Part shown: one piece after another, positions 1 to 42,760 of the stretch
Layout: each line of letters begins with the position of its first letter
Numbering within the stretch: the first letter of the stretch is position 1
Source: Bacteroidales bacterium
GTDB taxonomy: Bacteria > Bacteroidota > Bacteroidia > Bacteroidales > WCHB1-69
Assembly: GCA_017617445.1 (NCBI GenBank)
Contig: JAFZWE010000011.1
Location: 1 to 50,321, forward strand
Direction of reading: 5' to 3'
Length of the DNA stretch: 50,321 nt
The notes under the pieces: generated by a model
The model's input: only the letters and a program-made list of their open reading frames with translations
Database searches by the model: none
What the model was told of the DNA's origin: nothing
Program-made: the position numbers and the translations under genes

Positions 1-490
1 AGCCGTCTTCGTCTTCCTTCTTCACGGTGAGTTTGTCCTTGCCGTCGAATTCCACGCCTGCCACGTAGGAGATCATCGGGGTGTGGAGGTGTTCGGCGAT
101 CTGCGGGCCGACCTGGGCGGTGTCGCCGTCGATGGCCTGGCGGCCGGTGATGACGAGGTCGTGCTCGATGACGCGGAGCGCGCCGGCCAGTGCGTTGGAG
201 GTGGCGAGCGTGTCAGCGCCGGCGAACTTGCGGTCGGTGAGGAGGATGGCGCGGTCGGCACCCATAGCCATGGCCTCGCGGAGGATGGCCTCAGCCTGCG
301 GCGGTCCCATCGTGATGACGGTGACATGTGCGCCAAACTGGTCTTTCAACTGGAGGGCCACTTCAAGGCCGCCCTTATCGTCAGGGTTCATAATGCTCGG
401 CACACCGTCGCGAATCAACGTACCCGTTGCGGGGTTGATCTTGATTTCGGTGGTGTCCGGAACCTGCTTGATACAAACTACTATTTTCAT
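1..490 (-). CDS. etfB: Electron transfer flavoprotein beta subunit (partial, C-terminus off window)
   Basis: The 163 visible residues begin MKIVVCIKQVPDTTE, the standard start of EtfB, and contain the FAD/AMP-domain signature around AIDGDTAQVGPQIAEHL. EtfB pairs with EtfA to carry electrons between flavoenzymes; EtfA would be expected just beyond the left edge. The ATG is at 488-490, 31 bases after the stop of the acyl-CoA dehydrogenase gene, so the two are very probably one operon. In anaerobes this pairing serves butyryl-CoA dehydrogenase/Etf complexes, with or without electron bifurcation; that cannot be settled here. The family is about 260 residues long, so roughly 100 residues are missing. 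Confidence 0.93.
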   Translation of the reverse strand, partial: MKIVVCIKQVPDTTEIKINPATGTLIRDGVPSIMNPDDKGGLEVALQLKDQFGAHVTVITMGPPQAEAILREAMAMGADRAILLTDRKFAGADTLATSNALAGALRVIEHDLVITGRQAIDGDTAQVGPQIAEHLHTPMISYVAGVEFDGKDKLTVKKEDEDG

Positions 491-521
491 ATCTATTTTT
501 TATTTTCTGATTTCTAATTAA

Positions 522-1661
522 TTAAGCGAACAATTTGGCGGCAATGACCATTCTCTGGACCTCGCTGGTGCCTTCGTAAATTTCGGTGATCTTGGCGTCA
601 CGCATCATTCTTTCCACCGGATACTCGCGGGTGTAACCGTAACCGCCGTGGAACTGCACGGCCTTGGTGGTCACCTCCATTGCGGTTTCAGCGGCGAACA
701 GTTTCGCCATGGCTGCGTCGGCAGAGTAGGGGATGTGCATGTCTTTCTTGTAAGAAGCGGAACGAACCAGCAGACGGGCAGCCTGAACCTTGGTTTCGAG
801 GTCGGCCATCTGGAACTGGGTGTTCTGGAACTTGGCGATTGCCTTACCGAACTGTTTACGTTCCTTGGTGTATTTAACCGTCTCATCCATAGCGCCTTGT
901 GCGATACCGAGAGCCTGTGAGGCGATACCGATACGGCCACCGTCGAGGGTCATCATAGCGATTTTGAAACCCTTGCCAAGATCGCCGAGGAGGTTTTCCT
1001 TCGGAACTTCGCAGTTTTCGAAAATCAGCTCGCAGGTAGCGGAGCCGCGGATACCCATCTTCATCTCCTTCTTGCCGATGCTGAAGCCCTTGAAGCCCTT
1101 CTCCACGATGAAGGCGGAGATGCCCTTGGTGCCTTTCGACTTGTCAGTCATGGCCATCACGATGAAAACGGAGGCCTCGCTGGCGTTGGTGATGAAAATC
1201 TTGGAACCGTTGATGATCCATTTGTCGCCGGCATCCACTGCGGTGGTCTGCTGCATGGCGGCGTCGGTACCGGCGTTGGGTTCGGTCAAACCGAAGGCGC
1301 CGATCCACTCACCGGAGGCGAGTTTCGGGAGGTACTTCATCTTCTGCTCCTCGGTGCCGTGCTCCAGGATAGGAGCCATGCAGAGGGAGGTGTGGGCCGA
1401 CACGATGACGCCGGTGGTGGCGCACACGCGGGAGAGTTCCTCCACGGCCATCGAGTACATCTGGTTGGTGCCGCCCTGTCCGCCGTACTGTACGGGAATC
1501 GGGATGCCCATCACGCCGAGTTTGCCGAGCTTCTTCACGGTCTCGATCGGAAATTTCTCTTGTTCGTCAACTTCCGCAGCCAGCGGCTTGACTTCGTTCA
1601 CTGCAAATTCGCGAATCATCTGCAGGAACAACTCTTCTTTTTTTGATAAACTGAAATCCAT
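522..1661 (-). CDS. Short-chain acyl-CoA dehydrogenase (butyryl-CoA dehydrogenase type)
   Basis: A 379-residue cytoplasmic flavoenzyme, full length for the family. The N-terminal helical domain starts MDFSLSKKEELFLQ; the central beta domain has the FAD-contacting AFGLTEPNAGTDA stretch; the C-terminal helical domain has KITEIYEGTSEVQRM, in which the Glu at about residue 363 is the expected catalytic base. It oxidises a short acyl-CoA, or reduces crotonyl-CoA to butyryl-CoA in fermenters, and passes electrons to Etf. The gene lies directly upstream of etfB in the same direction, which supports a Bcd-Etf unit. A TAnnTTTG-type box about 90 bases upstream is a likely promoter. Chain-length preference cannot be read from the sequence. 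Confidence 0.93.
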   Translation of the reverse strand: MDFSLSKKEELFLQMIREFAVNEVKPLAAEVDEQEKFPIETVKKLGKLGVMGIPIPVQYGGQGGTNQMYSMAVEELSRVCATTGVIVSAHTSLCMAPILEHGTEEQKMKYLPKLASGEWIGAFGLTEPNAGTDAAMQQTTAVDAGDKWIINGSKIFITNASEASVFIVMAMTDKSKGTKGISAFIVEKGFKGFSIGKKEMKMGIRGSATCELIFENCEVPKENLLGDLGKGFKIAMMTLDGGRIGIASQALGIAQGAMDETVKYTKERKQFGKAIAKFQNTQFQMADLETKVQAARLLVRSASYKKDMHIPYSADAAMAKLFAAETAMEVTTKAVQFHGGYGYTREYPVERMMRDAKITEIYEGTSEVQRMVIAAKLFA

Positions 1662-1748
1662 TGTATTGATTTAAATTATAATTTGTTTGCTATAAAATGT
1701 TTTGTGGCCGTCAAATGAATGCCGGTCTTCGGATTTAAAAAGCGGGTG

Positions 1749-1782
1749 CAAAAGTAGTAAAAAAAAGTGCATTTGCAGCAAA
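1749..1782 (-). promoter_or_regulatory. Bacteroidota-type promoter for acyl-CoA dehydrogenase/etfB
   Basis: On the minus strand TACTTTTG (plus 1749-1756) fits the -7 consensus TAnnTTTG. A TTTG (plus 1779-1782) lies 22 bases upstream, close to the usual -33 spacing. The resulting leader would be about 80 bases. Confidence 0.4.
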
Positions 1783-1859
1783 AAAATCTGCATATAAGGA
1801 CAACCTATAGATTCCTCCGCACATAAAAGCACGGGGTTCAACTTATGGAGAGCCTGTTA

Positions 1860-3059
1860 CTACCGTTCAATCGGCAGGGGCTCGTCAATGCGCTCGTTCC
1901 ACGGAAGACCGTATTTTCCGATTTCAGCGAGGAACGGATCCGGGTTGAACTCTTCCACATTGAACACGCCCGTGCCCTTCCATTGGCCAGTAAGAATCAT
2001 CTTGGCTCCCAGCATACAAGGCACGCCAGTGGTGTAGGAAACCGCCTGAGCGCCAACCTCTTTGAAACACTCGGCATGGTCGCAGTTGTTCCAAATGTAG
2101 TAGGTAAGCTCCTTACCATCCTTGATGCCGCGCATCTGGCAGCCAATGGAGGTCTGTCCCTTGTAGCCTTCTCCCAAAGAGGAGGGTTCCGGCAGAACGG
2201 CCTTCAGGAACTGCAAAGGAACGATTTCCTTGCCCTCATAGTTGATGGGCTGTATCGAGGTCATCCCCACCTCTTGAAGCACATTCAGCACGGTGAGGTA
2301 TTTCTGGCCGAAAGTCATCCAGAAACGGGCGCGCTTAATGGTTGGGTAGTTCTTGGTAAGAGACTCCAGTTCTTCATGGTAAAGCAGGTAGGACTCCCTG
2401 TCACCGATATTGGGATATTCAACAGCTTTGTGGATGCTCATCGGGTCAATTTCCACCCACTGGCCATTTTCCCAGTACTTGCCACGCTGGGTGATTTCAC
2501 GGATGTTGATCTCAGGATTAAAATTGGTGGCGAAAGCCTTGCCGTGGTCGCCGGCATTGCAGTCCACAATATCCAGATAATGGATTTCATCAAAATGGTG
2601 TTTAGCTGCATAAGCAGTATAAATACTGGTGACACCGGGGTCAAAACCGCAACCAAGGAGGGCCATAATGCCAGCTTCCTTAAAGCGATCCTGATAGGCC
2701 CATTGCCACTTGTACTCGAACTTGGCCACATCTTTGGGTTCATAGTTGGCCGTGTCCATGTAGTTGGTTTTGGTGGCGAGACAGGCGTCCATCAAGGGGA
2801 GGTCTTGATACGGAAGAGCCACATTGATCAAAAGATCGGGCTTCTCTTTTTCCAGCAGTGCGATGGTTTCCGGCACATTGTCGGCATCCACCTGGGCCGT
2901 TCGGATATTCGGGCGGCCTATTTCCGCTGCCAGTTTATCGCACTTGGCCTTCGTACGGCTGGCGATCACGATTTCAGAAAAAACTTCAGGAACGGAAGCA
3001 CATTTGTGTGCCACTACTGCGCCAACTCCTCCGGCGCCGATGATTAATACTTTTGCCAT
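1860..3059 (-). CDS. Saccharopine dehydrogenase-family protein, probable carboxynorspermidine/carboxyspermidine dehydrogenase
   Basis: A 399-residue NAD(P)-dependent enzyme. The Rossmann fold opens with VLIIGAGGVGAVVAHK (GxGGVG, residues 8-13), followed by the catalytic-domain motifs GCGFDPGVTSIY and DIVDCNAGDHGKAFATNFN. In Bacteroidota this family member condenses aspartate semialdehyde with a diamine to make carboxy(nor)spermidine, a step in spermidine synthesis that replaces the SAM-decarboxylase route. The lysine-forming saccharopine dehydrogenase is the alternative, but this sequence looks like the polyamine clade. No polyamine decarboxylase gene is next to it. It lies between the kinase and the acyl-CoA dehydrogenase on the same strand but has its own promoter-like box. 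Confidence 0.88.
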   Translation of the reverse strand: MAKVLIIGAGGVGAVVAHKCASVPEVFSEIVIASRTKAKCDKLAAEIGRPNIRTAQVDADNVPETIALLEKEKPDLLINVALPYQDLPLMDACLATKTNYMDTANYEPKDVAKFEYKWQWAYQDRFKEAGIMALLGCGFDPGVTSIYTAYAAKHHFDEIHYLDIVDCNAGDHGKAFATNFNPEINIREITQRGKYWENGQWVEIDPMSIHKAVEYPNIGDRESYLLYHEELESLTKNYPTIKRARFWMTFGQKYLTVLNVLQEVGMTSIQPINYEGKEIVPLQFLKAVLPEPSSLGEGYKGQTSIGCQMRGIKDGKELTYYIWNNCDHAECFKEVGAQAVSYTTGVPCMLGAKMILTGQWKGTGVFNVEEFNPDPFLAEIGKYGLPWNERIDEPLPIER

Positions 3060-3194: not shown

Positions 3195-4775
3195 TTACTT
3201 CTCTGGTTGAGAGGGTGACGGGCGACCCATAATGGTGTTTTCATCGCTGGCAGAGAACGAACGTCCCGCAGGAGCTCCCATGACGGTGTTCTCCGCATCA
3301 TCAACAGTATCAAACTTTTTCAAAGAGGGACGCATTTCTGGATTTTTCTCCAAATAGGGTTCCAGTAAACGCTTCCATTCAAGCGGCAGTTTTTCTGTAT
3401 CCAAAGGCACTTCAACAATATTCCTCCGAACCTGATAATCACTGGTGGTAGTCATGTCATACGGAACCCGGCCCGTGAGCAACTGCACGAAAGTCACCGC
3501 GAGCGAATACAGGTCGGTCTTGTAATCAAGATGCTTGGCGTCCATCACTTGCTCGGGACTCATATACATGAGCGTGCCCATCGTGGTGCCGGTTTGTGTT
3601 TTCCCACCGCCGTCGTTCATCTTGGCAATGCCAAAATCAAGCAGTTTCACGTTCCCCTCCTGGTCAATGACAATGTTGGAAGGTTTGATGTCGCGGTGGA
3701 CGATATCCTGGGCGTGGGTGTAATTCAACGCTGACACCAGCTGATTCCACCATTGCCGCAGTTGACTTTGGGTGAACCTCTCTCCTTTTTTCAAACGAGT
3801 GCTAAGGTCTTCGCCCTCCAAGTATTCCATCACGATACAGGGACGCCCCTCCACTTCATCATAGTCGTACACCTGCCGGATATTCGGATGGTTGAGACGC
3901 ACCATCATGTCCGCTTCCTTACGGAAACGATCAGTCACATCCGAATCTTCACAAAATTGTGGCAAAAGGATTTTCACCGCGGCAGGCTTGTGGATCTTGT
4001 TCTCGGCATACCACACCTCCGCCATGCCTCCTTTGCCCAACAAACGAATCAGCTCATAGCCGTTGGCCACCCCTTTCCCTTGCGGAACTACCGGAGAGAC
4101 CTTTCTTTTGTGACTGGATTTTTTTCTGAAAACAAAAAACAGAACCACACCCACAACAACCACCAGCAATATCAACAGCAACAGCCAAATTATCATCGGA
4201 AAACTTTTCCCCTCCCCTTTGTGCTGCAACGGCAATTCCTCTTGTTTCTCCACATCTCCAGTATCTTGAATATTCGTCAGCATACAGCTATCATTCAACA
4301 CCGTCTCTTTCTCCTGCTGGCACAACCCCTCCACTTTTATGTCTAACATTTCATCCACTTGAATACACCAACCGCCAGTACAACTTTGTCCAGTAACATG
4401 ACATGAAACGACAAAACCTTTATCTGTTTTTATCTTAATTCTTTGAATGAATACAGCTTTATCCTTGTAAAAGTAATCAGTGCACCCGAAGATATCATCG
4501 TATTCTTGCTGGGCTTTAGGGGGTCGCATCTTTCCCTGCAGCTGATAATTATCAGATGGAGTGAATGTGATTTCCAATGGTATCATAAAACCATCGGACC
4601 GGTCAACAGCACATAATATCCAGTTTTCCTGTATGATTGCTGTAATCTGAACCTCCGCCTCATCGGCAGAACACATCTGCACAGAACTTTGCCATTCTAC
4701 AGGGCGAACTATTTGTGCTTGTGCCATCAAACAGGTGAGTACCAACAAACTGAAGAGCCAAAATGATTTTTTCAT
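3195..4775 (-). CDS. Receptor-type Ser/Thr protein kinase with DsbD-N-like periplasmic domain
   Basis: 526 residues from the ATG at 4773-4775; an upstream TTG at 4799 would bury the signal peptide. Order: signal peptide MKKSFWLFSLLVLTCLMAQA (1-20); periplasmic domain (about 21-150); linker; transmembrane helix (about 193-216); kinase domain (about 240-485); C-terminal tail. Kinase motifs are complete: GKGGMAEVW loop, Lys268, HRDIKPSN (Asp362), DFG (380-382), and APE-like SPE. The periplasmic part follows the layout of the DsbD N-terminal domain: PVEW start, NWILCAVD, PLEITFTPSDNYQLQGK, EYDDIFG, KAVFIQRIKIKTDKGF and a C-x4-C pair (Cys132, Cys137) where that family has its redox cysteines. I infer a thiol- or redox-responsive receptor kinase. 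The kinase call is certain; the sensor-domain call is by eye. Confidence 0.9.
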   Translation of the reverse strand: MKKSFWLFSLLVLTCLMAQAQIVRPVEWQSSVQMCSADEAEVQITAIIQENWILCAVDRSDGFMIPLEITFTPSDNYQLQGKMRPPKAQQEYDDIFGCTDYFYKDKAVFIQRIKIKTDKGFVVSCHVTGQSCTGGWCIQVDEMLDIKVEGLCQQEKETVLNDSCMLTNIQDTGDVEKQEELPLQHKGEGKSFPMIIWLLLLILLVVVVGVVLFFVFRKKSSHKRKVSPVVPQGKGVANGYELIRLLGKGGMAEVWYAENKIHKPAAVKILLPQFCEDSDVTDRFRKEADMMVRLNHPNIRQVYDYDEVEGRPCIVMEYLEGEDLSTRLKKGERFTQSQLRQWWNQLVSALNYTHAQDIVHRDIKPSNIVIDQEGNVKLLDFGIAKMNDGGGKTQTGTTMGTLMYMSPEQVMDAKHLDYKTDLYSLAVTFVQLLTGRVPYDMTTTSDYQVRRNIVEVPLDTEKLPLEWKRLLEPYLEKNPEMRPSLKKFDTVDDAENTVMGAPAGRSFSASDENTIMGRPSPSQPEK

Positions 4776-9719: not shown

Positions 9720-10535
9720 TTAGGAGTGCAGCTTTTTCCAAATACGATGTACAAGAAAATTGGGGAGGGCATTGACCGTCGGTCCAAAAAGAGGGTTCAA
9801 TAAACCCGGGGTTACACACCGACGGCGATGGAACATCGCACGCAACGCTTTCCTTACCAATTTTTCTGGCGAATAAACCAGACCGAACTTTCCCGCAACT
9901 TTTAGAATGCGCACCAGCCCCGGAAGCACGTGATACAACCCCGTATCCACCGCACCCGGACATACTACCGTCACCCCCACCCCATAGGGCCTCATCTCAA
10001 AATAAAGAGATTTTGAGAAACTTCTTAAGTAGGATTTAGTCGCGGCATACATGGTGAGCCCGGGTACCGGCATCCCTGCTGCCACCGAGGAGACATTCAG
10101 TATGAAGCCTCTTCCCCGTAGTTTCATTTGGTTTCCGAACAAAAAACAGAGGCGAGTCGGTGTAACCATGTGAAGGTTCATCATCAAGTCCATGGGAGCT
10201 CTCATCTCCTCCTGCAACTCGCGGAAGAAGAAAATACCGGCATTGTTGATTAATATGTCAATTTCCAGCCCCATTTCCTGACAATAGCGAAATAGTTCAT
10301 CCGCCGCTTCTTCACGCGCCAAATCACAAAATTTGGGCCATACATTCACATGAAATTCCTGTTGTATGGATACTGCCAATTGTTGCAGCTCCAGCTCCTG
10401 GTTGCTCACCATCAGCACCTGGCATCCCGCCGCCGCCAACTCCCGAGCATACGCCAAACCCATACCAGAACTGGCTCCCGTCACCAAAGCTGTACACGGC
10501 AACGCAAAGTTTTTCGGTAAACAGTTTTTTTTCAT
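9720..10535 (-). CDS. Short-chain dehydrogenase/reductase
   Basis: 271 residues from the ATG at 10533-10535. NAD(P)-binding TGASSGMG, NNAG, catalytic Ser in NVSSVAAG, and YAATK (Tyr-x3-Lys) are all present, then CPGAVDTGLY. The C-terminal part (LVRKALRAMFHRRRCVTPG and following hydrophobic residues) resembles membrane-associated SDRs of the 3-ketoacyl/DHRS type that act on lipids. An upstream in-frame ATG at 10601 was rejected because the stretch between encodes the terminator of the preceding gene. Substrate unknown. Confidence 0.85.
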   Translation of the reverse strand: MKKNCLPKNFALPCTALVTGASSGMGLAYARELAAAGCQVLMVSNQELELQQLAVSIQQEFHVNVWPKFCDLAREEAADELFRYCQEMGLEIDILINNAGIFFFRELQEEMRAPMDLMMNLHMVTPTRLCFLFGNQMKLRGRGFILNVSSVAAGMPVPGLTMYAATKSYLRSFSKSLYFEMRPYGVGVTVVCPGAVDTGLYHVLPGLVRILKVAGKFGLVYSPEKLVRKALRAMFHRRRCVTPGLLNPLFGPTVNALPNFLVHRIWKKLHS

Positions 10536-10565
10536 ACCCCTTGACTCCTTTTCATTTGCTTTCTG

Positions 10566-10599
10566 AAAAAAATAAAAAAGGGGTGACTTGCGCCACCCC
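10566..10599 (-). terminator. Rho-independent terminator of the giant repeat-protein gene
   Basis: On the minus strand GGGGTGGC pairs with GTCACCCC (one G-T pair) around a GCAA tetraloop, followed by TTTTTTATTTTTT. It sits 21 bases after the stop of the 3571-codon gene and decides against starting the next SDR gene at 10601. Confidence 0.88.
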
Positions 10600-10620
10600 A
10601 TAATTAGTTATTATCTAATG

Positions 10621-13600
10621 TTATCTTTGAGAAATGCTGACCTTGTAGTTGGCCACCTTGGCTTCTGTCATGACTCTCACAACATAGATGCCATTGGCTG
10701 CATTCAAATTGATAACTGTAGGATTGCTTTGAGCATTGCCTCTGAAGATGACTCTACCATTCATATCGTAAACCTGAACCTCTTGGATTTGTGCATTGCC
10801 ATTGTTCACAACATAAATATCATTACCGTTGCTGTAAACTCTGACATCGCTGATGGTGAGATCCTGGATACCAGGATTGATAGAGGTAGTGTCACCCAAG
10901 GTCACAAAGGTCTGCTGTGAAGTCCAGTTGCTTTCTGCAGTATCGGTGATGCAAACAGATTTCACATTCCATACATAGCGAGTAGCCTCTTCAAGACCCG
11001 TCAGTGTGTAGAAGTTGTCAGTGATATTGGCAACCTCAGTGTAAACAGTGTCGCTGGCTTTCTTGTAACGGACAGTGTAGGAAGTCACATCCATGTCAGT
11101 CCAGTTCAAAGTAGCACCGTCCATAGTGATGTCATCAGCCCATGCATAGGTCGGGACAGGACAGGTAGCGGCAGTAAAGGTCACGCTGATGGTGTGCGGA
11201 GCCATCACATTGGAGAATGTGTAGGTGGTCACCGGAGTGGGAAGAACCACGCTGTCAACCATCACTTCTGCAATTGTATAATACTGATCCGGAGTGATGT
11301 AGTAAGTTACACTTGCACCATAAGAAACAGCAGTGTCACCCAGCGGGCTGATCGTACCATTAGCACCAGCTGTGGAAGTGATGATGAAGGTAGTATCTGC
11401 AATAGCATGGAAGGTCACGTCAATCGTATGATTTCCGTTCACATTTTCAAACAGGTAAGTGTTGGTGTCACCGATAGATTCACCGTCCACCATAACATCT
11501 TCAATTTCATAACCGTTGGCCGGAGTGATGATGTAGAGCTGTGAACCGCCGCATGCCACCAGAGTGGTACCGGCAGGAGAGATATAACCGCCTTCTGTAG
11601 CAGTAGCTACGATGGTATCCATTCTAACAACTGCTGTCACATTGATTACATGGTTAGCAGTGATGGTATCAAGTGTAATTGAATCAACAGCACCCATGCT
11701 TTCGCCATCCACGGTCACATCGCTGATTACATAGCAACTGTCAGCTGTGAAATTGAAGGTGAGAGATGAACCGAATTCAACCAATGTATCACCATCAAAC
11801 GGAGTGATAGTCACACCGGCGTTCGCATAAGCGGAAACCATGAAGGTATCAATACCGAAGTTGGCGATGATTTCATGGTCTTCATGGAGTGAAGCGAAGG
11901 TGTAGGTATTGATGACACCCATGTCAACGCTGTCAACCAAAACATTGATGATGTGATATCCTTCATTCGGAGTGATTTCGTATATCGGAGCAGCACCGCA
12001 ATCGAAGGTGTCGGTAGCAGTGATGGAACCGGCAGCGGGATCATTGACAGAAGCTGTAATGGTATAGGTCTTCATCGTGAAGGTAGCTTCAATGGTATGG
12101 TCAGCACTGATACTGTCAAACGTGATTGTAGTATCGCTCACTTCACAAGAGGTAGATGTACCATCAATCACAATCTCAGTAATGGTGTGACATTCGTCAG
12201 CTGTGATTTGATAAGCAACGGCCGTACCGCAGTTGTAAACACCCGTCTCGGTGATCACACCGCCGTCATTAGCTTCAGCTTCAACTGTGTAGGTCATCAC
12301 CTGGAAGTAAGCCTGAATCGTCATGTCACGCTGGATATCACTAATGGTCAAAGTATTGTTTGCAAAATTAGCACTGTCAAGGTAGGAAATACCATTCACA
12401 AGGAGTTCAGAAACCGTCTGGCAATCATTCGGAGTCAAAGTGTAGGTAACTGTTGAACCGAAGGCCACGGTGGTGTCGCCCATCGGAGTGATGGTACCAT
12501 AGTTGTAAGCTGTAGCATTCAAAGTGTAGTACACAGTGTCAAAGTTCACCTCAACGGTATAGTCTGCAGCAATATTGGAGATGGTATAAGAAGTCGGAGT
12601 TCCAATGTTATGACCATTGACAATCACACTGGTAATCTGGCTACCATCGGCAGGTGTGAAGGTGAAGTCAACCGTGGTATCACAATTGTAGGTGTAGGTG
12701 CCAGCGGTCGGAGTAACGATACCGCTACCATTCACAACCACTTGAACATCGTAGGTGTTGACAGCGAAGTTCACATCAATCGTGTGGTCTGAATCAACAT
12801 TGTTGAATGTATAGACATAGTAGTTGATATTGGTGTCGAATGTGGTATCCACTACGTTGTCCACCAAAATCTCGCTGATATGATAGCAACTGTTGGCCGT
12901 GATAGTGTAGGAAACGCTTTCGCCATAGTTGACGGTAGTGGTACCAGGCATCATAATCGTACCGTTGGTGACTTGACCTGCAGTGATATTATAGGTGTTG
13001 GTCTCGTAATTCACTACCAAAGTATGGTTAGCACTGATGGTGTCAAATAGATAAGGATAAGTAGTGCTGCCAGCAGTGAAATTAGCAGGAACTGTACCGT
13101 CAACCAAGACGCTTCCAATATGATATCCAGTATCCGCAATCATGGTATAGGTTACACTGGCTTCAAACTCTACGGTGGTGTCACCAGGAGTGGTGGCACC
13201 GTTACCGGTAGAAGTGACGTCGATAGTGTAAGTGTTACGTGCGAAATTCACGGTGAGAACTGTATCCTGAGAAGCCACAGTAACATTTCTGTAAGCAATC
13301 ACATCACTGTTATGGTTCAAGGTGTAGGTCACTCCACCGAGAGTGTGGTCTTGGATGTGCCAACCATCGGCAGCAGTCATGGTGTACTGGTAGAATGAAC
13401 CGCAGTCCACTGTGTCAGAGGTAACCGTACCTTCACCGTTGATCACTGTATCCATCACGTAGCGATAGATGGCGAAGTCAGCAGCAATGGTATGAGCTTC
13501 CTGAATATTTTCAAAAGTGTAAGTAGCTTCTGTAATATCATCCACAGCAATGTCTGCGCCATCCACAGTGATACTGTTGATGTAGTAGCAGTCTGCAGGT

Positions 13601-16600
13601 CTAATGGTATAGGTGAGGGTATCACCGTCAGCAACCACAGTGGTGCCCGCAGGTGTTACCGTACCGTTATCGCCTGCAGTGGCAACGATTTCATAGTGGT
13701 TCAAAGCGAAGGTGGCAATCAAGTGGTGATTTTCATGGAAATCAGTAATCGTTACTGTGTGGTGGAGAGAATCAACGCTCGGATCATAGGTAGCGTCATT
13801 GGCGCCATCAAGATTGACAGAAACGATATGATAACCGCGAGTAGCCTGGATATCATAAGTGTATGAACCATCTGTACAAGGAACTGCTGTAGCAGAAGTA
13901 ACTGTACCGAAGGTGGCATCCGGGCGAACCTCTGAGGTGAAATCATAAGTATATTCGGCGAAGAAGGCCTCAATTGTACGGTCGGAGGTTACGTTGGTGA
14001 AGTTGTAAACCACCGGAACTGTGTCATACACATAAGAGGTAGCAATGCCATCCACTACATAGTAGTCAATATAATAGCAAGGAACTTCAGAGGTGATTTC
14101 CACTGTGGTATCCTGACCCCACTGGATGTGGATCGGACCAGAAGTGATGTTGCCATGGTCATGAGCAATTGTAGTGATGTAGTAGTTGTTCAAATCAAAG
14201 GTAGCGCAGATGTTCGGGGTGTCAACCACATTGGTAACAATATAAGCATAGGTAACATCTGAATTGTCGCCCAGGGTCACAGGAGCATTGCCACCAGTGA
14301 TGGTTTCAATATGATAACCATTGGTGGTATTGGCATTAACCGTCACAGTTATATCCTGTCCGTATTCAACGGAATCCGGAACGGTCACCATTGAACCAAT
14401 AGCAGGATCAATGTCGCAAAGAACAACAGGATAAACGTTCTTAGCAAACACTACTCCAAGGATAGTATCGCAAGTAGCGGCAGCAACCGTGACATTCGCG
14501 GTAACGTCATTGTTGGTACCAAGAACAGTGGTGTTTCCACCGATAGTGTAAGATTCAATATGAGAGCCTGTACCAGCTGTAATAGTATAGGTGTAAGGAT
14601 CGTCGCAATTCACCGTAGCCGTTGTAACCGTACCATCGCCCGTGTGAGCTTCACCCATCAAATACTGATAGATAGCGAAGTTGGCTTCAAGGGTTTGGGC
14701 AGCGGTGATACTGTTGAATGTATAGGTCATACCGGTAATATTGTCAATTGTTGCGGTTTCGCCATTGACAAGCAACTCGCTGATGTAATAGCAATGGTCA
14801 GGAGTGATGGTATAAGTGACAGATTCACCATCTTCCAGAACAGTGTCACCAGGAGTGATGGTGCCGTGGTCTCCAGCGGTCACGTCAACCAAGTAATGGT
14901 TGATGGCGAAGGTGGCAATCACATGGTGATCTTCATGGAAGTCTGCGATAGTAACGGTATGCTGCAAAGAGTCAACCGTCGGATCGAAGGTAGCATCGTC
15001 GGTACCGTCCACATTGACAGAAACAATATGATAACCACGAGCAGCTTCAATATTGTAGGTATATGTACCTGTGGTACAACCTACGGCAGAATCACTGGAA
15101 ACAGTACCGAATGTGGGATCCGGCAACACTTGTGAAGTGAAGTCATAGGTATATTCTGCAAAGTAAGCTTCAATGAGATGGTCAGCATGGATATTACGGA
15201 AGGTGTAGCTGTACGGCATACTGTCATTCACAAACGAAGTAGCATTGCTATCAATAACAACACGATCAACATAATAGCAAGGAACATCCGAAGTAATTAC
15301 ATAAACCATACTGTCGCCCCAATTCACATGAGCCACAGTGTCAGGATCAATGTTGCCATTGTCATAAGCGATAGCCGTAATGGTGTAATTGTTCAAAGCA
15401 AATTCAGCGCAAACAGACGGAGTGTCAACCACGTTGGCAACAACATCAGTGAAGGTAACATCATCATTGTTACCAAATGCAGTAGTTGTACCATTCACTG
15501 TCACAGAAACAATGTGATAACCGTTGGCGGCATCTGCCGTAACAGTATAGGTGAAAGAACTGTCGTAAAGAACGGTAGCGGGATCAACCGTAACAGTACC
15601 ACCTACGATAGCATTGCCATCACAGATCTGGACTGTATAAGCATTGCTGGCGAAGATGACATCCAGAGTAGTATCGCTGGAAGCGGCCAACACATCCACG
15701 GTTGCGGTCACATCGTCATTGGTACCCAATGTCGTTGTGTTTCCACCGATAGTATAAGAAGCGATATGCCAGCCCTGTTCAGCAGTGATGGTGTAAGTAT
15801 AGTCCTCACCGCAGTTGACAGCACCATCGGTAACGGTACCTTCTCCTGTGTGGGTTTCAGCCATTTCATAAACAATAGTATCAAATGTAGCAATGATATC
15901 GCCGCTAGCGTTAGCATGCCAAGTGTAAGCATTGTTCTCTACGCTATCAACATATTCCACATCATTAATGGTGAAGGAAACCAGCTCTTGGCAAGCCTCC
16001 GGAGTGAATACGAAATTAAATACAGAGTCATAAATCACATTTGTGAAAACTCCCTCGGGAGAAACCACACCACCTTCATTGTAGGTGATATTGATATCGT
16101 AGTAATCAATTTCAAAGTTCACTCTCACCACATGGATTTCGTGAATATCATTGAACTCAATATCAAGAGAGTCAACATAGAGATCCGTGTATTCAGGAAC
16201 ATTCTCACCGTCAATCATTACCCAATTGACATGATAGCCTTCATTGGCAACAATGTGATAGATGAAGTTTCCGCCGCAGACAGCCTCGCCGGAGTTAATA
16301 GTACCATGGGAACCCATAGCAATACCTGTCATCGTGAACATGGAATCAGCGAAGACCACCTCAATGGTGTGTTCAGCAATTACATTGTTGAAAGTATAGC
16401 TCATGCCCGCTGCGTTGCTCACTGTAGCAGGAATATTGTCAATCAGAATAGAATCAATATATTTGCAGTCATTCGGAGCGATATGGAAGACAACCGTTGC
16501 GCCATATTCCCAATTCTGAGTCAGCGGGTTGACCTCACCAGCGGTTTCGTCAAAGATCACCGTGATCGGGAATTCATTATGTTTAAAGTAAACATAAACA

Positions 16601-19600
16601 TCCGTATCGGAAACCACTTCATTCACAGTGTAAGCATAGGTGATTGCTGCATTGGAATCCAGGGTAACGATATCTTCGCCGCAAGTGATCTTTTCAATAT
16701 GGTAGCCATTGCCAGCATCAGCAGTGAAGTTGATGGTTGCGCTCTGGCCATGATTAACCGTCTGCACGCCTTGGTCGTATGAACCGGCCTGGTGAGCGAT
16801 ATGGGCGGTAACTGTGTAGGTGTTGATGTCAAAGTCAACCGTCAAAGTGTCATCACCCGCAATGGTAGTGGGAACCACCAAAGAGGCAACCACACCGTCA
16901 ACGGTGGTAGTGGTGCCATTCAGAACATAATTGGCAATATGCCAACCCTCTTCGGCGGTCAGCGTATAGCTCTGTTCTGAGCCACAAACTGCTGTGTCAG
17001 CGGAAGCGGTCACTGTACCACCTTCATCATTAGCAACGATGCCTGACATGGTGTAATCAATCAGGTCGAAGGTGGCGGCCACTGTCGTAGCTTCAGTGAT
17101 GTTGTTCACGGTAAGAGCATAACCAGCGGGATTGCCGGTTACAACATGAATGTTATCCAAGAAGAAACGGTTGCGGGAAGCGTTTGCGCTTTCAAATTTG
17201 ATAGTGGTACCGGCCTGTCCATCGGTTCCTGAGATGGTGAAGGTCTGCATATCACAATCTGTTTTCGGAAGATCGGTAACAGTATATTCTGTCGTTCCCA
17301 CAGTTACTTTGATGGTAGTTCCTTCTCTACTGTCATCCCATGCCTTAGCGTCAAAGGTAATGGTGTAAGCACCACCATTGGTGGAGAGGTCAAGAGCCGG
17401 GGTGGTAAGGCTTCCCTTCACACTTGTTGTACCCAGTTTCAATTTTCCATTTGCACCGTAAACTTTGCTACCCTGCCAGCCAGGAAGAACCGTAGTATAA
17501 CTGATTTCATTGGTTGCTGCTTCACACTGCTGTGTGGCGCTGGTGCTCATGTCGGTAACATTGGCAAAATCATAAGTAACCACTTCTGTGATGTTTTCTG
17601 TCACCTCTACTACATCAGCCATAGCACTTACGTTGTTCACCAAAACTTCTGTCAGTTCATAGCAATCGCTTGTAGGAACCATCTGGAAGGAAACAGAACC
17701 ACCATGTTCAACAGATGCAGAAGCGGGATTGATGGTACCATTCGTCGCAGTGGCAGTTACATTGTAATGGTTGAGAGAGGTGTAAGCTGTCAGGTCTTTG
17801 TCCTCTGTCACATTCATCACTACATGGGTTACTTCGCCTTGTTCGCCCGTATAGCTTTCAGCAAACACGCCGTTCACGTAGACGGAATCCACATGATAGT
17901 TGTCGGCAGCAGTGATGGTGTAAGTATAATTGGAGCCGCAAGATGCGGTGGGGTCGCCTGTGACCACTGCACCATTGTCGCCAGACCCTGTCATAGTGTA
18001 TTCAAATACCTCAAAGTAAACATCAACGACATGGTCATTTTCAATATTGGTAAGGTTGACAGAAGCCACCGGTGCGTTGTCCACAACGATGGAGTCAACG
18101 AAAGTACAGGAAGTTCCAGCAGCGGTCAGTGTGAAGTTGTCCCCATACTGAACTGTCACGGTCGGACCAGCAGGAGTGGTAGTGCCCTCTCCATTGGTAT
18201 TGATAGTGATTGTGTATTCGTTGATTTCAAAAGTCACATATACATTGGTATCGGAAATCACGGAACCGAGGGCGAACTCAACGATAGAGTCAGCATTGCC
18301 ATTGATGTTAGTCCATGTTTCTGTACCGCAAGTAATGGTAGCCACATGCCAGCCGTGGTCAGCGATAGCAGTCACAACAGAGGGATCGGTATAATACACG
18401 ATGCTGTCTGCCGGCAGAGCCTGACCCTGACCATCAGTTACACTCGCATAAACGTGGTTGTATTCACGGTTGAAATAAACATCAATCACATGGTTAGTTC
18501 CATCCATAGTGACGGGCAGCAGGTCCATGTGCTGCTGATACTGGGGAGCGTCGCTGGCATTATAAACCAAGCCATTCCATTTCACAGAATCAATTCTTGA
18601 ATGGGTAGTGGCGTCAGCGTCCACATACACGTCACGAACAGTGCTTGCGCAAGTGGCGGTTCCAAACACACCTTCGGGTTGGCCATTCACAGTACCCAGA
18701 CCAGGACCGTGGAACACGGAAGTGAGGTCATACACTGCAGTATCAAACAGCACTTCAATGGTGCTGTTGCTCCACAGGGTGTCGAAAGTATAGGAATCAG
18801 CGATTTCAACTGCTGTTCCATTAACCAAGATGGAATGGATTCCGATGCATTCTTCATACGTGAAAGTATAGGTCGGGAAAGCGTCAAATTCATATGTGGT
18901 GTCACCTACCGGATTGATTGTGCCACCGATGCCAGAAGCAGAGGCGCTCACAGTGAAATGATTTTTGCTATAATATACAGCGATGGAGTGATCTCCGGTC
19001 ATGTTGAAATCCCAGGAGCCGTTGAACCAGGTTTCGTTATAGCTGGCTGTATTGAGAGCGCCATCAATGTAGAGGGAATCAATATGGTAGCCTGTTTCAG
19101 CTGCGAAGGTGTAGTGAGCGGTTTCGCCGCAAGCATAAGTAGCGGAAGCCTCAACGGTACCTGTAGCCGTCACTTCATACTGATATTGAGCAAAGGTGGC
19201 AGCAATAACATGGTTAGCGTGAACGCTGTCAAGTGTGAGGGTCATTCCATCGGGATCGGTGATGGTTTGAGCTGTTCCGTCCAAAGTAACGCTTTCAATA
19301 TAGTAGCAGTTCTCAGGGGTAATCACATAATCATAGTTAGCACCGTGGTTCACTACAGCGGAGCCTTCAATGGTGCCGTTTTCACCGGCTTCGATGTCAA
19401 CGGTGAATGTGCAGGCGTTGGTTTCATTCACAGTCAAGTTCAAAGTGGCAGTGGTGTCGCCGCAAGCGGTGAGGCTTACCACATAGGTTCCTGTAGCATC
19501 GCAGTTTTGTCCATAGAAAACATACGGGGTTTCATTCACACAGATGGTGGTGTCTTTTGTTTCACGGTTATAAACCGGAATGACATTCAGTGTGAAGACC

Positions 19601-21336
19601 ACATTGCTATCGCAACCATTAATGGAGGTTTCATTGTAGTTGAAGGTACCTCCTTCGGTATAGCTATGTCCGCGGAATTCAAAAGTGGCGAGTTCTGCGG
19701 GGCAGATGGTGGTGTCCACTTCTTCGTTATACACGGGAGCTACAACAAGCGTATAGTTCACGATGCTGTCGCAACCGTTCACTGTGGTTTCGGCATAAGT
19801 TTCGCTACCTGCTGCAGTCCATTCATGTCCACGGAACATGTGGGGCAGTGCAGAAGCACAAACTGTTTCGGTGATATCCTCCGCATATATCGGATTGACA
19901 GTGAGTTGGAGGGTCACTGTGCTGTCACAACCAGCAATGCTCTGGAGGTTGTAGGTATATTCACCTGTGGTTGTTCCTGCCTCAACAACAATGTCACCAA
20001 CATTCTGCGGAAGTTGATTTTCGCAGAACGTGGCTTCAACGACTTCGTTGTAAACCGGGCTGATGACCAACGTCAGTGTAACGTTGCTGTCACATCCATT
20101 GACTGTCTCAAAAGTATATTCAAGGTCGTTGTACACCCCAGGTTCGGCATTGGCGTCAAAATGGTAACCAAGAGCCCCTGCTCCGAACTGGTATTCTGTA
20201 CCCTGACAGATGGAATCTGTGATTGTCACGTTATAGGTGGGGTTGACATCCAGATAGAGGACACGTACACTGTCGTGGCCACCCTGAGCAGCGCCTTCTT
20301 TGGTGAACATATATATATTTGTTTCTGTACATATACTATCTATGCCATCAAATGTGGAGAAGGTATAAGATTGGCCTTCGCAGATAGCAGCGACCTCTTC
20401 ATACATTGTGTCGGAAGCAACAACAGGATTAACTGTAACATGAAGCACTACGAAGCTGTCGCAACCGCAGGAGGTTTCATTCCCGTTGTAGTAATGGCTA
20501 TGGTCTCCTGCTGTGCTGATTATATCTCCAGCAAATTCAAAACTTTCTCCTTCATTAATTGTGACATCATATTCATATTCTCCAGGAATAACGGAAAGGT
20601 TAAGCGTCACAATGGTATCACAAGCGCCGCCCACACCGGGAACAGTATCAACATGGGTTCCAGCGTCGGCGGGGAGCAGGTTGGTGCCATAAAAATTGTA
20701 ATAGTCTCTGCTGTGGTCATAGCTGTATTCGCAGATGGAGATGTTATCCGTGCGTGTTTCCGTACAGGGTGCCACATCCACCTTGTAAATGGAAACGGCT
20801 ACCTGGCCTGAAACATAGCAACTGAACAAGTGGCTTGAACTATTATAGCGCAAGGTATTATGAGTATAACTGCCCTGAGCTACAATATCCACCGAGTTCC
20901 CATTCTGTGTAAAACTCCAGGAAGCGTTCGCATCGATTGTGGTCTGCGTTCTCAACCAGTTGCTGCTTGAAGAGGCGGCATACAAGTAGTTGTTCTCTCC
21001 CACATTCATCGCAAACGTGCCTGTCGTACTACCCGCTTTCAAGGTAATCACCTGTACTGTTGTCTCATCAAACGTAATGGTGTTTCCTTCTTTGGTAACA
21101 TTAGCCGTATCACGGTTATTGGTGTTTTGTGTAACGCCCAATGCAACAGCCGCATTAGATGACACAATAATAATCTGGTCTCCAATGGCGAGTGTTGAAG
21201 CATCCGTCACCAGCTGCGCAGTTTGCGCATTTACATTACCTATTGCCATCAGCAAAAGAAGTGCAACGGCAACAAAACTCTTCATCTTGGAAAAGATTCG
21301 GAAATTTTTAGGCTCAAAAGTGTAAAACTTTTTCAT
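10621..21336 (-). CDS. Giant T9SS-exported repeat protein (33 InlB-like modules, GCDS modules, FN3, type A sorting domain)
   Basis: 3571 residues. A signal peptide lies at MKSFVAVALLLLMAIGNVNA (residues 18-37), so ATG 21285 is an alternative start. Order: a beta-rich N-terminal domain (about 38-175); about eight GCDS-type modules (about 190-637; for example GCDSTVTLQLTVNP); about 33 modules of 75-84 residues (638-3388) with the pattern YxITxxxGYHIxSVxVDG ... HxIxAxFA, fitting the divergent InlB B-repeat family; a domain like choice-of-anchor J inserted in module 8 (about 1253-1402); a fibronectin III domain (about 3389-3494); and a T9SS type A sorting domain (about 3495-3571, ending with ANYKVSISQR). 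Probable cell-surface adhesin or fibre. Modules 4-24 show a five-module higher-order period. A hairpin terminator follows; a -7 box lies 123 bases upstream. Confidence 0.9.
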   Translation of the reverse strand: MKKFYTFEPKNFRIFSKMKSFVAVALLLLMAIGNVNAQTAQLVTDASTLAIGDQIIIVSSNAAVALGVTQNTNNRDTANVTKEGNTITFDETTVQVITLKAGSTTGTFAMNVGENNYLYAASSSSNWLRTQTTIDANASWSFTQNGNSVDIVAQGSYTHNTLRYNSSSHLFSCYVSGQVAVSIYKVDVAPCTETRTDNISICEYSYDHSRDYYNFYGTNLLPADAGTHVDTVPGVGGACDTIVTLNLSVIPGEYEYDVTINEGESFEFAGDIISTAGDHSHYYNGNETSCGCDSFVVLHVTVNPVVASDTMYEEVAAICEGQSYTFSTFDGIDSICTETNIYMFTKEGAAQGGHDSVRVLYLDVNPTYNVTITDSICQGTEYQFGAGALGYHFDANAEPGVYNDLEYTFETVNGCDSNVTLTLVISPVYNEVVEATFCENQLPQNVGDIVVEAGTTTGEYTYNLQSIAGCDSTVTLQLTVNPIYAEDITETVCASALPHMFRGHEWTAAGSETYAETTVNGCDSIVNYTLVVAPVYNEEVDTTICPAELATFEFRGHSYTEGGTFNYNETSINGCDSNVVFTLNVIPVYNRETKDTTICVNETPYVFYGQNCDATGTYVVSLTACGDTTATLNLTVNETNACTFTVDIEAGENGTIEGSAVVNHGANYDYVITPENCYYIESVTLDGTAQTITDPDGMTLTLDSVHANHVIAATFAQYQYEVTATGTVEASATYACGETAHYTFAAETGYHIDSLYIDGALNTASYNETWFNGSWDFNMTGDHSIAVYYSKNHFTVSASASGIGGTINPVGDTTYEFDAFPTYTFTYEECIGIHSILVNGTAVEIADSYTFDTLWSNSTIEVLFDTAVYDLTSVFHGPGLGTVNGQPEGVFGTATCASTVRDVYVDADATTHSRIDSVKWNGLVYNASDAPQYQQHMDLLPVTMDGTNHVIDVYFNREYNHVYASVTDGQGQALPADSIVYYTDPSVVTAIADHGWHVATITCGTETWTNINGNADSIVEFALGSVISDTNVYVTFEINEYTITINTNGEGTTTPAGPTVTVQYGDNFTLTAAGTSCTFVDSIVVDNAPVASVNLTNIENDHVVDVYFEVFEYTMTGSGDNGAVVTGDPTASCGSNYTYTITAADNYHVDSVYVNGVFAESYTGEQGEVTHVVMNVTEDKDLTAYTSLNHYNVTATATNGTINPASASVEHGGSVSFQMVPTSDCYELTEVLVNNVSAMADVVEVTENITEVVTYDFANVTDMSTSATQQCEAATNEISYTTVLPGWQGSKVYGANGKLKLGTTSVKGSLTTPALDLSTNGGAYTITFDAKAWDDSREGTTIKVTVGTTEYTVTDLPKTDCDMQTFTISGTDGQAGTTIKFESANASRNRFFLDNIHVVTGNPAGYALTVNNITEATTVAATFDLIDYTMSGIVANDEGGTVTASADTAVCGSEQSYTLTAEEGWHIANYVLNGTTTTVDGVVASLVVPTTIAGDDTLTVDFDINTYTVTAHIAHQAGSYDQGVQTVNHGQSATINFTADAGNGYHIEKITCGEDIVTLDSNAAITYAYTVNEVVSDTDVYVYFKHNEFPITVIFDETAGEVNPLTQNWEYGATVVFHIAPNDCKYIDSILIDNIPATVSNAAGMSYTFNNVIAEHTIEVVFADSMFTMTGIAMGSHGTINSGEAVCGGNFIYHIVANEGYHVNWVMIDGENVPEYTDLYVDSLDIEFNDIHEIHVVRVNFEIDYYDINITYNEGGVVSPEGVFTNVIYDSVFNFVFTPEACQELVSFTINDVEYVDSVENNAYTWHANASGDIIATFDTIVYEMAETHTGEGTVTDGAVNCGEDYTYTITAEQGWHIASYTIGGNTTTLGTNDDVTATVDVLAASSDTTLDVIFASNAYTVQICDGNAIVGGTVTVDPATVLYDSSFTYTVTADAANGYHIVSVTVNGTTTAFGNNDDVTFTDVVANVVDTPSVCAEFALNNYTITAIAYDNGNIDPDTVAHVNWGDSMVYVITSDVPCYYVDRVVIDSNATSFVNDSMPYSYTFRNIHADHLIEAYFAEYTYDFTSQVLPDPTFGTVSSDSAVGCTTGTYTYNIEAARGYHIVSVNVDGTDDATFDPTVDSLQHTVTIADFHEDHHVIATFAINHYLVDVTAGDHGTITPGDTVLEDGESVTYTITPDHCYYISELLVNGETATIDNITGMTYTFNSITAAQTLEANFAIYQYLMGEAHTGDGTVTTATVNCDDPYTYTITAGTGSHIESYTIGGNTTVLGTNNDVTANVTVAAATCDTILGVVFAKNVYPVVLCDIDPAIGSMVTVPDSVEYGQDITVTVNANTTNGYHIETITGGNAPVTLGDNSDVTYAYIVTNVVDTPNICATFDLNNYYITTIAHDHGNITSGPIHIQWGQDTTVEITSEVPCYYIDYYVVDGIATSYVYDTVPVVYNFTNVTSDRTIEAFFAEYTYDFTSEVRPDATFGTVTSATAVPCTDGSYTYDIQATRGYHIVSVNLDGANDATYDPSVDSLHHTVTITDFHENHHLIATFALNHYEIVATAGDNGTVTPAGTTVVADGDTLTYTIRPADCYYINSITVDGADIAVDDITEATYTFENIQEAHTIAADFAIYRYVMDTVINGEGTVTSDTVDCGSFYQYTMTAADGWHIQDHTLGGVTYTLNHNSDVIAYRNVTVASQDTVLTVNFARNTYTIDVTSTGNGATTPGDTTVEFEASVTYTMIADTGYHIGSVLVDGTVPANFTAGSTTYPYLFDTISANHTLVVNYETNTYNITAGQVTNGTIMMPGTTTVNYGESVSYTITANSCYHISEILVDNVVDTTFDTNINYYVYTFNNVDSDHTIDVNFAVNTYDVQVVVNGSGIVTPTAGTYTYNCDTTVDFTFTPADGSQITSVIVNGHNIGTPTSYTISNIAADYTVEVNFDTVYYTLNATAYNYGTITPMGDTTVAFGSTVTYTLTPNDCQTVSELLVNGISYLDSANFANNTLTISDIQRDMTIQAYFQVMTYTVEAEANDGGVITETGVYNCGTAVAYQITADECHTITEIVIDGTSTSCEVSDTTITFDSISADHTIEATFTMKTYTITASVNDPAAGSITATDTFDCGAAPIYEITPNEGYHIINVLVDSVDMGVINTYTFASLHEDHEIIANFGIDTFMVSAYANAGVTITPFDGDTLVEFGSSLTFNFTADSCYVISDVTVDGESMGAVDSITLDTITANHVINVTAVVRMDTIVATATEGGYISPAGTTLVACGGSQLYIITPANGYEIEDVMVDGESIGDTNTYLFENVNGNHTIDVTFHAIADTTFIITSTAGANGTISPLGDTAVSYGASVTYYITPDQYYTIAEVMVDSVVLPTPVTTYTFSNVMAPHTISVTFTAATCPVPTYAWADDITMDGATLNWTDMDVTSYTVRYKKASDTVYTEVANITDNFYTLTGLEEATRYVWNVKSVCITDTAESNWTSQQTFVTLGDTTSINPGIQDLTISDVRVYSNGNDIYVVNNGNAQIQEVQVYDMNGRVIFRGNAQSNPTVINLNAANGIYVVRVMTEAKVANYKVSISQR
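13471..17064 (-). repeat. Three successive five-module cassettes (about 400 residues each)
   Basis: Modules 9-13 (15880-17064, 395 residues), 14-18 (14674-15879, 402 residues) and 19-23 (13471-14673, 401 residues) align module by module. The last two are clearly similar at DNA level too, e.g. around 13700-13860 and 14900-15060. Module 5-type copies share VVSDTDVYVYF/VVDTPNICATF endings; 17 and 22 share EYTYDFTS and GYHIVSVN. Confidence 0.8.
17131..17580 (-). other. Choice-of-anchor J-like domain inserted inside an InlB-like module
   Basis: About 150 residues starting VTYDFANVTD and ending RNRFFLDNIHVVTGN interrupt module 8, whose first half (to SAMADVVEVTEN) and last strand (ALTVNNITEATTVAATFD) flank it. 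The W-Q-G-S, LTTPALDLS, ITFDAKAW and FFLDNI landmarks fit the jelly-roll domains of T9SS cargo proteins. Confidence 0.65.
19426..20780 (-). repeat. GCDS-type module array at the N-terminal part of the giant protein
   Basis: About eight modules of 50-65 residues end with GCDS(I/N/T)V or a variant (CDTIV, CGCDSFV, GHDSV), a short strand such as TLTLVIS or TLQLTVN and P-x-Y, then a Cys-containing start (TICVNETPYVF, TVCASALPHMF). The same module type is found in the second giant gene at 49680-50321. Confidence 0.75.
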
Positions 21337-41911: not shown

Positions 41912-42760
41912 CTATACAATCCAACAATGCAAAAGCCAGTGCAATAGCAGAGACACCAGCACAATGATTCCACCGAGGACAAACATCATCATGAGCCCAT
42001 GCGAAAGAAGCAAATAGAAGATGATGGCCAAAGAACAGCTCAATCTCTTGGAGGGATTTTTTCTCAAACATCTTCTGGTAATGATTGGATAGCGACGCGT
42101 GGCTGTCTGTACAATCTTCCCAAAGGAGTAGATGTCCGCACGGTGGTCTGCAGGTTCAACGCTGTCGCACAATTCAGGTGCCATGAATGGGTTTGTCCCA
42201 ATGGTTTTCTTATAAAAAACAAAATTTTCCGCATCCGCCAGCCCCATATCAATGATTTTGACCACAAACCCATATCGGGAGACGATAATATTATCAGGCT
42301 TCAAATCCCTGTGAATCATACAATTCATGTGTATATACCTCATCCCCTGCAACACATGTATCAAGACCCGCAGCACCTCATACCATTTGTGCCTCTTCTT
42401 CAGGTATTCACCCAAAGTGACACCGTCGATATATTCCATCACAATACATGGGCCAATGACTGGATCCTTGCGCTTCCACAGGGTTTTTACCACATAAGGA
42501 TGATTGAGCCGCTTACCCATTTCAAACTCTTTATAAAGCATCATCTGGTAGTTGGGATTTTCCCTTAACTCTGGTTTCAACCCCTTCAAAATGTACCATT
42601 GTCCACGATATTGGGCTTTGTAAACACTATTAATTATGCCACTTGAAGGAATCTCCGTATAGTTGACAAAACCCTCTGTCCGGGCAAAAAAAAGATCCTC
42701 TATGGTTCCTGACGTGACACTCGGGACGTCAGAAGGCGGTTGACTAGTGTTTTCTAACAT
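41912..42760 (-). CDS. Compact Ser/Thr kinase with C-terminal membrane hairpin
   Basis: 282 residues from the ATG at 42758-42760 (an upstream GTG at 42799 is possible). Kinase motifs: Lys59 in WYILKGLKPE, MEYIDGVTLGEYL, IHRDLKPDN (Asp152, Asn157), DMG in place of DFG (171-173), MAPE, and DHRADIYSFG. The Gly-rich loop is degenerate (PSSGIINSVYKA) and the C-lobe is short, about 20 residues after helix F. The chain ends in about 38 hydrophobic residues (LAIIFYLLLSHGLMMMFVLG and following), enough for two helices, so the kinase is cytoplasmic and tail-anchored. Co-transcribed with the hypothetical gene behind it. Confidence 0.82.
   Translation of the reverse strand: MLENTSQPPSDVPSVTSGTIEDLFFARTEGFVNYTEIPSSGIINSVYKAQYRGQWYILKGLKPELRENPNYQMMLYKEFEMGKRLNHPYVVKTLWKRKDPVIGPCIVMEYIDGVTLGEYLKKRHKWYEVLRVLIHVLQGMRYIHMNCMIHRDLKPDNIIVSRYGFVVKIIDMGLADAENFVFYKKTIGTNPFMAPELCDSVEPADHRADIYSFGKIVQTATRRYPIITRRCLRKNPSKRLSCSLAIIFYLLLSHGLMMMFVLGGIIVLVSLLLHWLLHCWIV

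Follow-up and report, generated by a model that had tools for sequence, protein, structure and literature searches.

Domain architecture of a receptor-type kinase

The window (the whole stretch of DNA analysed, 50,321 nucleotides) carries on its reverse strand a gene, P0001, that codes for a predicted receptor Ser/Thr kinase with a DsbD_N-type domain ahead of the kinase. Its start codon is an ATG at 4775 and its stop codon lies at 3195–3197, giving a protein of 526 aa. The features below were assigned by the methods given in parentheses.

3195–4775, reverse strand: whole gene P0001, predicted single-pass receptor Ser/Thr kinase with a DsbD_N sensor, 526 aa (open reading frame and profile scan)
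4716–4775, reverse strand: signal peptide, residues ~1–20, MKKS...MAQA (sequence and hydropathy)
4326–4712, reverse strand: DsbD_N-type periplasmic sensor, residues 22–150 (profile and similarity searches, alignments)
4611–4619, reverse strand: I53-L54-C55, departing from the family (alignment of 110 domains)
4485–4499, reverse strand: cap-loop equivalent, D93-D94-I95-F96-G97 (alignment with E. coli)
4380–4382, reverse strand: Cys132, equivalent to E. coli DsbD C103 (alignment)
4365–4367, reverse strand: Cys137, equivalent to E. coli DsbD C109 (alignment)
4113–4217, reverse strand: transmembrane helix region, residues ~187–221, inner end basic (hydropathy)
3315–4058, reverse strand: Ser/Thr kinase domain, residues 240–487 (Pfam scan)

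Hydropathy places the signal-peptide stretch at about residues 4–23, with AQA-Q at 18–21, and one strong helix at residues 187–221, flanked by the basic segment RKKSSHKRK; about 165 residues lie between them in the predicted periplasm. The kinase domain (Pfam match at residues 240–487, E = 2.9e-52) contains the motifs GKGGMAEV (247), AAVKI (265), HRDIKPSN (360), and DFGIAK (380). With full kinase motifs, an extracytoplasmic domain, and one helix, the topology being that given by hydropathy, P0001 belongs among the transmembrane Hanks-type Ser/Thr kinases. Cysteines occur at residues 15, 35, 55, 98, 125, 132, 137, 152, 164, 275, and 313. An earlier note, written from the DNA without database searches, had given the coordinates, strand, cysteine numbers, and layout correctly, including a C-x4-C pair (Cys132/Cys137) and several further cysteines, as the residue listing confirms. 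In DsbD, membrane and thioredoxin-like domains come after the alpha domain, whereas in P0001 a single helix and a kinase take their place; a Pfam scan of P0001 detected neither the membrane electron-transfer domain nor the C-terminal thioredoxin-like domain of DsbD. The source assembly comprises 51 contigs and 2.07 Mb, is 80% complete, and is the one assembly from which the fusion is known.

Homology of the sensor to DsbD_N

The earlier note had likened the periplasmic domain to the N-terminal domain of DsbD and had named the lack of a match to the Pfam profile PF11412 as grounds for rejecting this. A match was obtained: the isolated domain scores 25.9 bits (E = 1.1e-5, cut-off 25), and PF11412 is the sole Pfam family that it matches at E ≤ 1. 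The whole protein scores 22.4 bits, under the cut-off of 25, and in a scan of its own genome P0001 is the only PF11412 match (25.4 bits, over the cut-off). Searches with the sensor domain returned matches at E ≤ 0.001 in 254 of 295 genomes of the order (best other E = 5.1e-24) and matches in 10 of 13 genomes of the genus (best other E = 5.5e-26, identities 36–42%), the source genome included in both counts. The listed order frames are mostly ~620–755 aa long, the size of DsbD. Of seven matching frames inspected, six contain the CVFPM membrane region, four of these with the CTNC thioredoxin-like end as well; the remaining one (L012) is truncated. A simple pattern found the membrane motif in 123 of the 135 DsbD_N frames from 133 fetched loci, and five DsbD-sized frames had neither a membrane nor a kinase motif by the same pattern. 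Taken with this direct similarity to DsbD, the profile match, although its score is near the cut-off, bears out the proposed homology. Judged by sequence, the periplasmic domain of P0001 is a true DsbD_N (DsbD-alpha) homolog.

The sensor is 34–41% identical to nine DsbD_N domains from the genus, which are 40–96% identical among themselves in the set used for the tree, and sequences from outside the genus reach up to 40% identity to it. In a tree of 52 sensor domains it falls amid DsbD from the genus and family and some others, in a poorly resolved part (support 50/88), and may or may not derive from the dsbD of its own lineage. Compared by profile with the lone E. coli nDsbD sequence, the sensor gave only a weak match (E = 0.0089, probability 4.6%), and a profile search of PDB sequences with the sensor gave no match up to E = 10. 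Searching PDB sequences with the single domain returned small scorpion proteins only (E ≥ 0.13), which were dismissed as chance matches.

Other arrangements of DsbD_N were seen in passing. One locus (L238 in G103, 2–2413, forward strand) encodes a DsbD whose DsbD_N domain is present as a tandem pair, another (L239 in G216, 394–888, reverse strand) a free-standing secreted DsbD_N protein, and the class profile search contained, by our own count, at least 22 DsbD_N frames of 150–175 aa.

Conserved cysteine pair, cap loop, and altered active site

P0001 shares with E. coli nDsbD (PF11412) a homologous domain, a cysteine pair, the Asp and Phe of the cap loop, and a periplasmic position after a signal peptide. 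Residue frequencies were counted in 110 distinct DsbD_N domains, that is, all 112 extracted domains without selection minus two duplicates. The Cys132 and Cys137 columns are Cys in 110 of 110, and E. coli C103 and C109 align with them in an alignment of 86 domains, in agreement with the earlier placement of this pair at the electron-exchanging cysteines of the family. If eight cysteines were scattered at random over 150 residues, the chance of Cys at both given columns would be ~0.0025. Of 80 named loci fetched, 72 contained a DsbD_N domain, and every one of these has a C-x3-6-C pair; the spacing in P0001, C-x4-C, occurs in 38 of the 72. The 86-domain alignment was built from 46 of these 72, hand-picked, and 40 others. 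It has both cysteines in 86 of 86 domains, H (73) or Y (13) at position 53, and Y (79) or F (7) at position 55; each domain contains between two and four cysteines. The 26 domains left out are mostly more divergent and include one with V53, one with H55, and one with five cysteines.

The cap loop is also recognizable. E. coli D68 and E69 align with D93 and D94, and F70 aligns with F96 through a one-residue gap. D93 is conserved in 97 of the 110 domains; at position 96, 78 have F and 13 have W. By alignment P0001 has a cap loop with its shielding aromatic residue (F96). Passages of PMC7347389 describe the E. coli cap loop (residues 68–72) as shielding the pair, rigid when the pair is reduced and able to open when it is oxidized. 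Since pair and cap-loop residues are retained, the domain keeps parts that make a response to its own redox state possible.

The rest of the active site departs from the family. E. coli DsbD has a C-x5-C pair and a WHLY/WYLY motif; P0001 has C-x4-C, WILC in place of the WHLY/WYLY found in most DsbD, and six extra cysteines. Of the 110 domains, 86 have H at position 53, 23 have Y, and one has V; at position 55, 102 have Y, seven have F, and one has H. The alignment-defined H/Y-x-Y motif is absent in P0001, and neither its I53 nor its C55 occurs in any of the 110. At position 85, P0001 has P where 37 of 40 domains have E. The extra cysteines are Cys35, Cys55, Cys98, and Cys125 inside the sensor domain and Cys152 and Cys164 after it; Cys55 takes the position of the Tyr/Phe in the active site, and Cys98 lies after the cap loop. 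Cysteines number two in 78, three in 21, four in 10, and five in 1 of the 110 domains. WILC and the extra cysteines suggest an altered use of the site, for added thiol chemistry or as a metal site, rather than as an efficient electron carrier. A role in simple electron exchange is weakened by the same two features and by the failure to find the rest of DsbD in the genome (below).

Two other uses of the domain bear on these residues. It may have become a sensor of a thiophilic metal (copper, zinc) or a small ligand, bound by the pair together with Cys55, Cys98, and other added cysteines, with binding in place of disulfide exchange switching the kinase. Six cysteines in a domain of 130 residues, plus two after it, would suit such a site when 78 of 110 relatives have just two, as would the positions of Cys55 and Cys98. 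The extra cysteines could equally form structural disulfides, though, and the classical pair is retained at a usual spacing, and we consider this sensor of metal or ligand, the foremost alternative to redox sensing, unlikely. Alternatively, the fold might be kept just for docking or dimerizing with periplasmic proteins, such as the thioredoxin-fold partners of DsbD, and take no part in redox or ligand chemistry. That the near-invariant H/Y53 and Y/F55 have been lost would fit, and nDsbD is described in PMC7347389 as normally binding several thioredoxin-fold partners. Pure docking would not require the two cysteines, yet both are retained, which makes a docking module improbable. Of the possible roles for P0001, thiol-redox sensing appears the likeliest.

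DsbD and candidate partners in the source genome

A query comprising the membrane and thioredoxin-like regions of a sister DsbD matched 9 of 13 genomes of the genus and had no match in the source genome, which is 80% complete. PF02683 (DsbD_TM) likewise had no match there, whereas 10 of 14 control genomes match. Three further genomes of the genus (G295, G299, and G301; 90, 91, and 76% complete) also gave no match to the DsbD membrane/thioredoxin part. Loss of DsbD from the source genome is possible; with an assembly that is 80% complete, dsbD could merely be missing from the assembly. The rest of DsbD is the usual electron donor of its alpha domain. We tentatively suggest that the lineage may have dismantled DsbD, keeping the alpha domain only as the redox receptor of a kinase with its chemistry widened by the new cysteines, so that envelope redox state would be coupled to Ser/Thr phosphorylation, a scenario that we hold to be possible but doubtful. 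Nine AhpC-TSA matches occur in the source genome, six of them over the cut-off, and three AhpC-TSA frames with a WCGPC or WCAPC motif and a start resembling a signal peptide or lipoprotein are possible partners of the sensor.

Search for a second fusion

No second DsbD_N kinase was found among the matches listed for 13 genomes of the genus and 295 of the order (sensor as query), 99 of the family and 395 of the phylum (whole protein as query), and 395 of the class (profile as query). These genome samples overlap. Because the family and phylum searches used the whole protein, a fusion would appear in both parts; the phylum search scored the best three candidates per genome. Most of the matches listed were judged by frame length, and a kinase fusion of DsbD size in rows of the order and class searches left unopened would escape. 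Odd short DsbD_N frames that were opened proved to be DsbD cut by a contig end or broken (G001, G061, G267, G316, G386, G871, G890, and G1061); the frames left unopened are the other ones of ~150–175 aa (order and class searches) and those > 800 aa (class search). Among the 135 DsbD_N frames in the 133 fetched loci, the kinase motif occurs solely in P0001. A genome-collection scan that took just the sensor as query, and whose reach is limited to close relatives, returned no second fusion, and the sensor had no match among 72,556 plasmid records. Whole P0001 matched 51 phage records, and the best 10 of 51 match the kinase part only.

The sensor domain family and the kinase class are both already known; their combination and the domain order are new. 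The earlier note knew of no described kinase of this build, and none appeared among the papers listed in a search of open-access literature.

The kinase module and its paralogs

P0001 resembles the PknB/StkP class in having a full kinase domain, a single membrane helix, and an extracytoplasmic domain, and the solved kinases closest to it in sequence are PknA and PknB. In the well-known kinases of this class the kinase is N-terminal and the sensor C-terminal. P0001 has the reverse order, and its sensor is DsbD_N. Against the PknB/PASTA equivalog NF033483 it scores 249 bits (cut-off 450), and it has no PASTA match. Models from PADLOC for the phage-defense kinase PD-T4-6 match the kinase part (E = 9.8e-74). 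They also match a sister kinase, so they look like general kinase-domain matches, and nothing else points to defense.

The genome holds 26 kinase matches, which by our own count lie in ~23 frames. A close set of 13 frames includes P0001 and 12 others (in L087–L098) that are 63–71% identical to it in the kinase domain; the kinase matches listed from other genomes of the genus are 36–42% identical to P0001. A tree of 19 kinases joins the close set at 100/100 with one kinase from outside the family but within the class (G656, 57% identical), and inner branching of the set is mostly without resolution. The paralogs share the kinase domain with P0001 but carry it near the N-terminus. This holds for 12 of 12, judged from frames between stops, one of which (C29:279) has no ATG before the kinase. 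A helix follows the kinase in 10 of the 12, and none was found in those on C11 and C51. Pfam scans of 10 of the 12 found FGE-sulfatase at the far end of two and Fib_succ_major over the cut-off in two; the far ends of the rest gave matches under the cut-off (Lcl_C, Fib_succ_major, DUF4595) or nothing. DsbD_N was found in 0 of these 10, and P0001 is alone in the close set in having a sensor in front of the kinase. A kinase module that stands in front elsewhere in the genome has here been set behind a DsbD_N domain, and P0001 illustrates how a multiplying kinase module can acquire an enzyme domain as its receptor. The set has the appearance of a lineage-specific burst of one kinase module joined to differing C-terminal domains. 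The window holds a second, more distant kinase frame at 41915–42817 (reverse strand), which measures 301 aa from stop to stop and has a C-terminal segment that is hydrophobic.

With a single source assembly in 51 contigs at 80% completeness, and a kinase family repeated within it, the gene could in principle be an assembly chimera in which the 5' part of a dsbD gene was misjoined to a kinase gene. The kinase domain, at 63–71% identity to its paralogs, is too different from them for repeat collapse. The junction consists of a single helix with a basic flank, not the DsbD CVFPM region or a kinase N-terminus, and the sensor is just 34–41% identical to the nine genus DsbD_N domains. A misjoin is very hard to credit.

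GC content is 41.0% over the signal peptide and sensor and 50.3% over the kinase, a step as in a mosaic. Values of 41–42% also occur in 4 of 8 sister DsbD_N stretches and one of 43.7% in 1 of 7 paralog C-parts, so no donor can be inferred. When six sister regions were compared with nine window genes, all six contained the gene at 1860–3059, which by eye is saccharopine-dehydrogenase-like, and one of the six also contained that at 9720–10601. With just these two of the nine recovered, the insertion site is not readable. A frame of 3571 aa at 10621–21336 (reverse strand) has, by eye, a signal peptide, many similar repeats, and a secretion- or sorting-like tail.

The mosaic-like step within the gene, and the lack of a second example among the matches listed from genus to phylum, would also be expected of a non-functional or short-lived chance fusion drifting in one strain or species. 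The gene nevertheless keeps 526 codons open and encodes kinase motifs, a well-formed signal peptide, and a helix flanked by basic residues; its redox pair is conserved even though the domain is just 34–41% identical to DsbD_N of the genus. Such a drifting fusion seems to us quite improbable.

Proposed role in envelope redox signaling

We propose that P0001 is a type-I single-pass receptor Ser/Thr kinase that reports the thiol state of the envelope to the cytoplasm through its DsbD_N sensor, and we give this reading, which the domain composition and alignments suggest, a probability of roughly 0.55. The alpha domain of a DsbD-type thiol-disulfide reductase would have been joined to the kinase module multiplied in the source genome. 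Cys132 and Cys137 would alternate between dithiol and disulfide through exchange with thioredoxin-fold proteins of the periplasm or with the envelope redox state in general, and the cap loop and nearby cysteines would respond to the change by altering the shape or dimerization of the sensor. The single helix would relay this to the kinase, probably through dimerization, as receptor kinases elsewhere signal in that way. A change in kinase autophosphorylation would then report envelope thiol state to the cytoplasm.

To our knowledge, few of the stimuli to which bacterial receptor Ser/Thr kinases respond are known. The sensor chemistry of P0001 is well studied, so its stimulus can be guessed and the guess tested with cysteine mutants and redox buffers. 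A comparable idea exists in eukaryotes, where, as described in PMC5596557, PDI activates the transmembrane kinase PERK in a redox-sensitive manner. PERK with PDI and P0001 would have in common that the output of a transmembrane kinase is tied to thiol-disulfide chemistry in an oxidizing compartment; for PERK the redox enzyme is a separate protein, whereas in P0001 it is built in. We know of no DsbD_N sensor in PERK. If the proposal is correct, P0001 would be a built-in link from disulfide chemistry in the envelope to phosphorylation in the cytoplasm, comparable as an idea to the action of PDI on PERK.

A diversity-generating retroelement at a sister kinase

The sole reverse transcriptase match in the source genome (PF00078, C37:1106–1786) adjoins one of the sister kinases, with the following features.

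C37 (L137) 890–1993, reverse strand: reverse transcriptase (PF00078 match)
C37 2004–2186, reverse strand: template repeat, 183 bases, between the reverse transcriptase and the kinase (repeat comparison)
C37 2501–4357, reverse strand: sister kinase, retroelement target (variable repeat at gene end)

The variable repeat on C37 had no match in the window at E ≤ 1e-3, and by that test P0001 is not a target. Template and kinase gene end differ at 19 sites, and 19 of 19 lie at template A (48 A among 183 bases; chance ~4e-13). C37 thus carries a diversity-generating retroelement whose target is a receptor-type kinase, in its C-terminal domain. Ser/Thr kinases with C-terminal domains made variable by such retroelements are described for cyanobacteria in portions of PMC7517822. 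Further gene ends in the genome resemble the template, and two of them, on C15 and C49, share the bias toward A. A kinase outside the close set (C15:3002–4825) has mismatches at 24 of 48 A and 9 of 135 other bases, and the kinase gene end on C49 has them at 25 of 48 A and 12 of 135 other bases. Those on C4 (25/48 A versus 26/135) and C32 (32/48 versus 48/135) are more diverged, with a weaker A bias.
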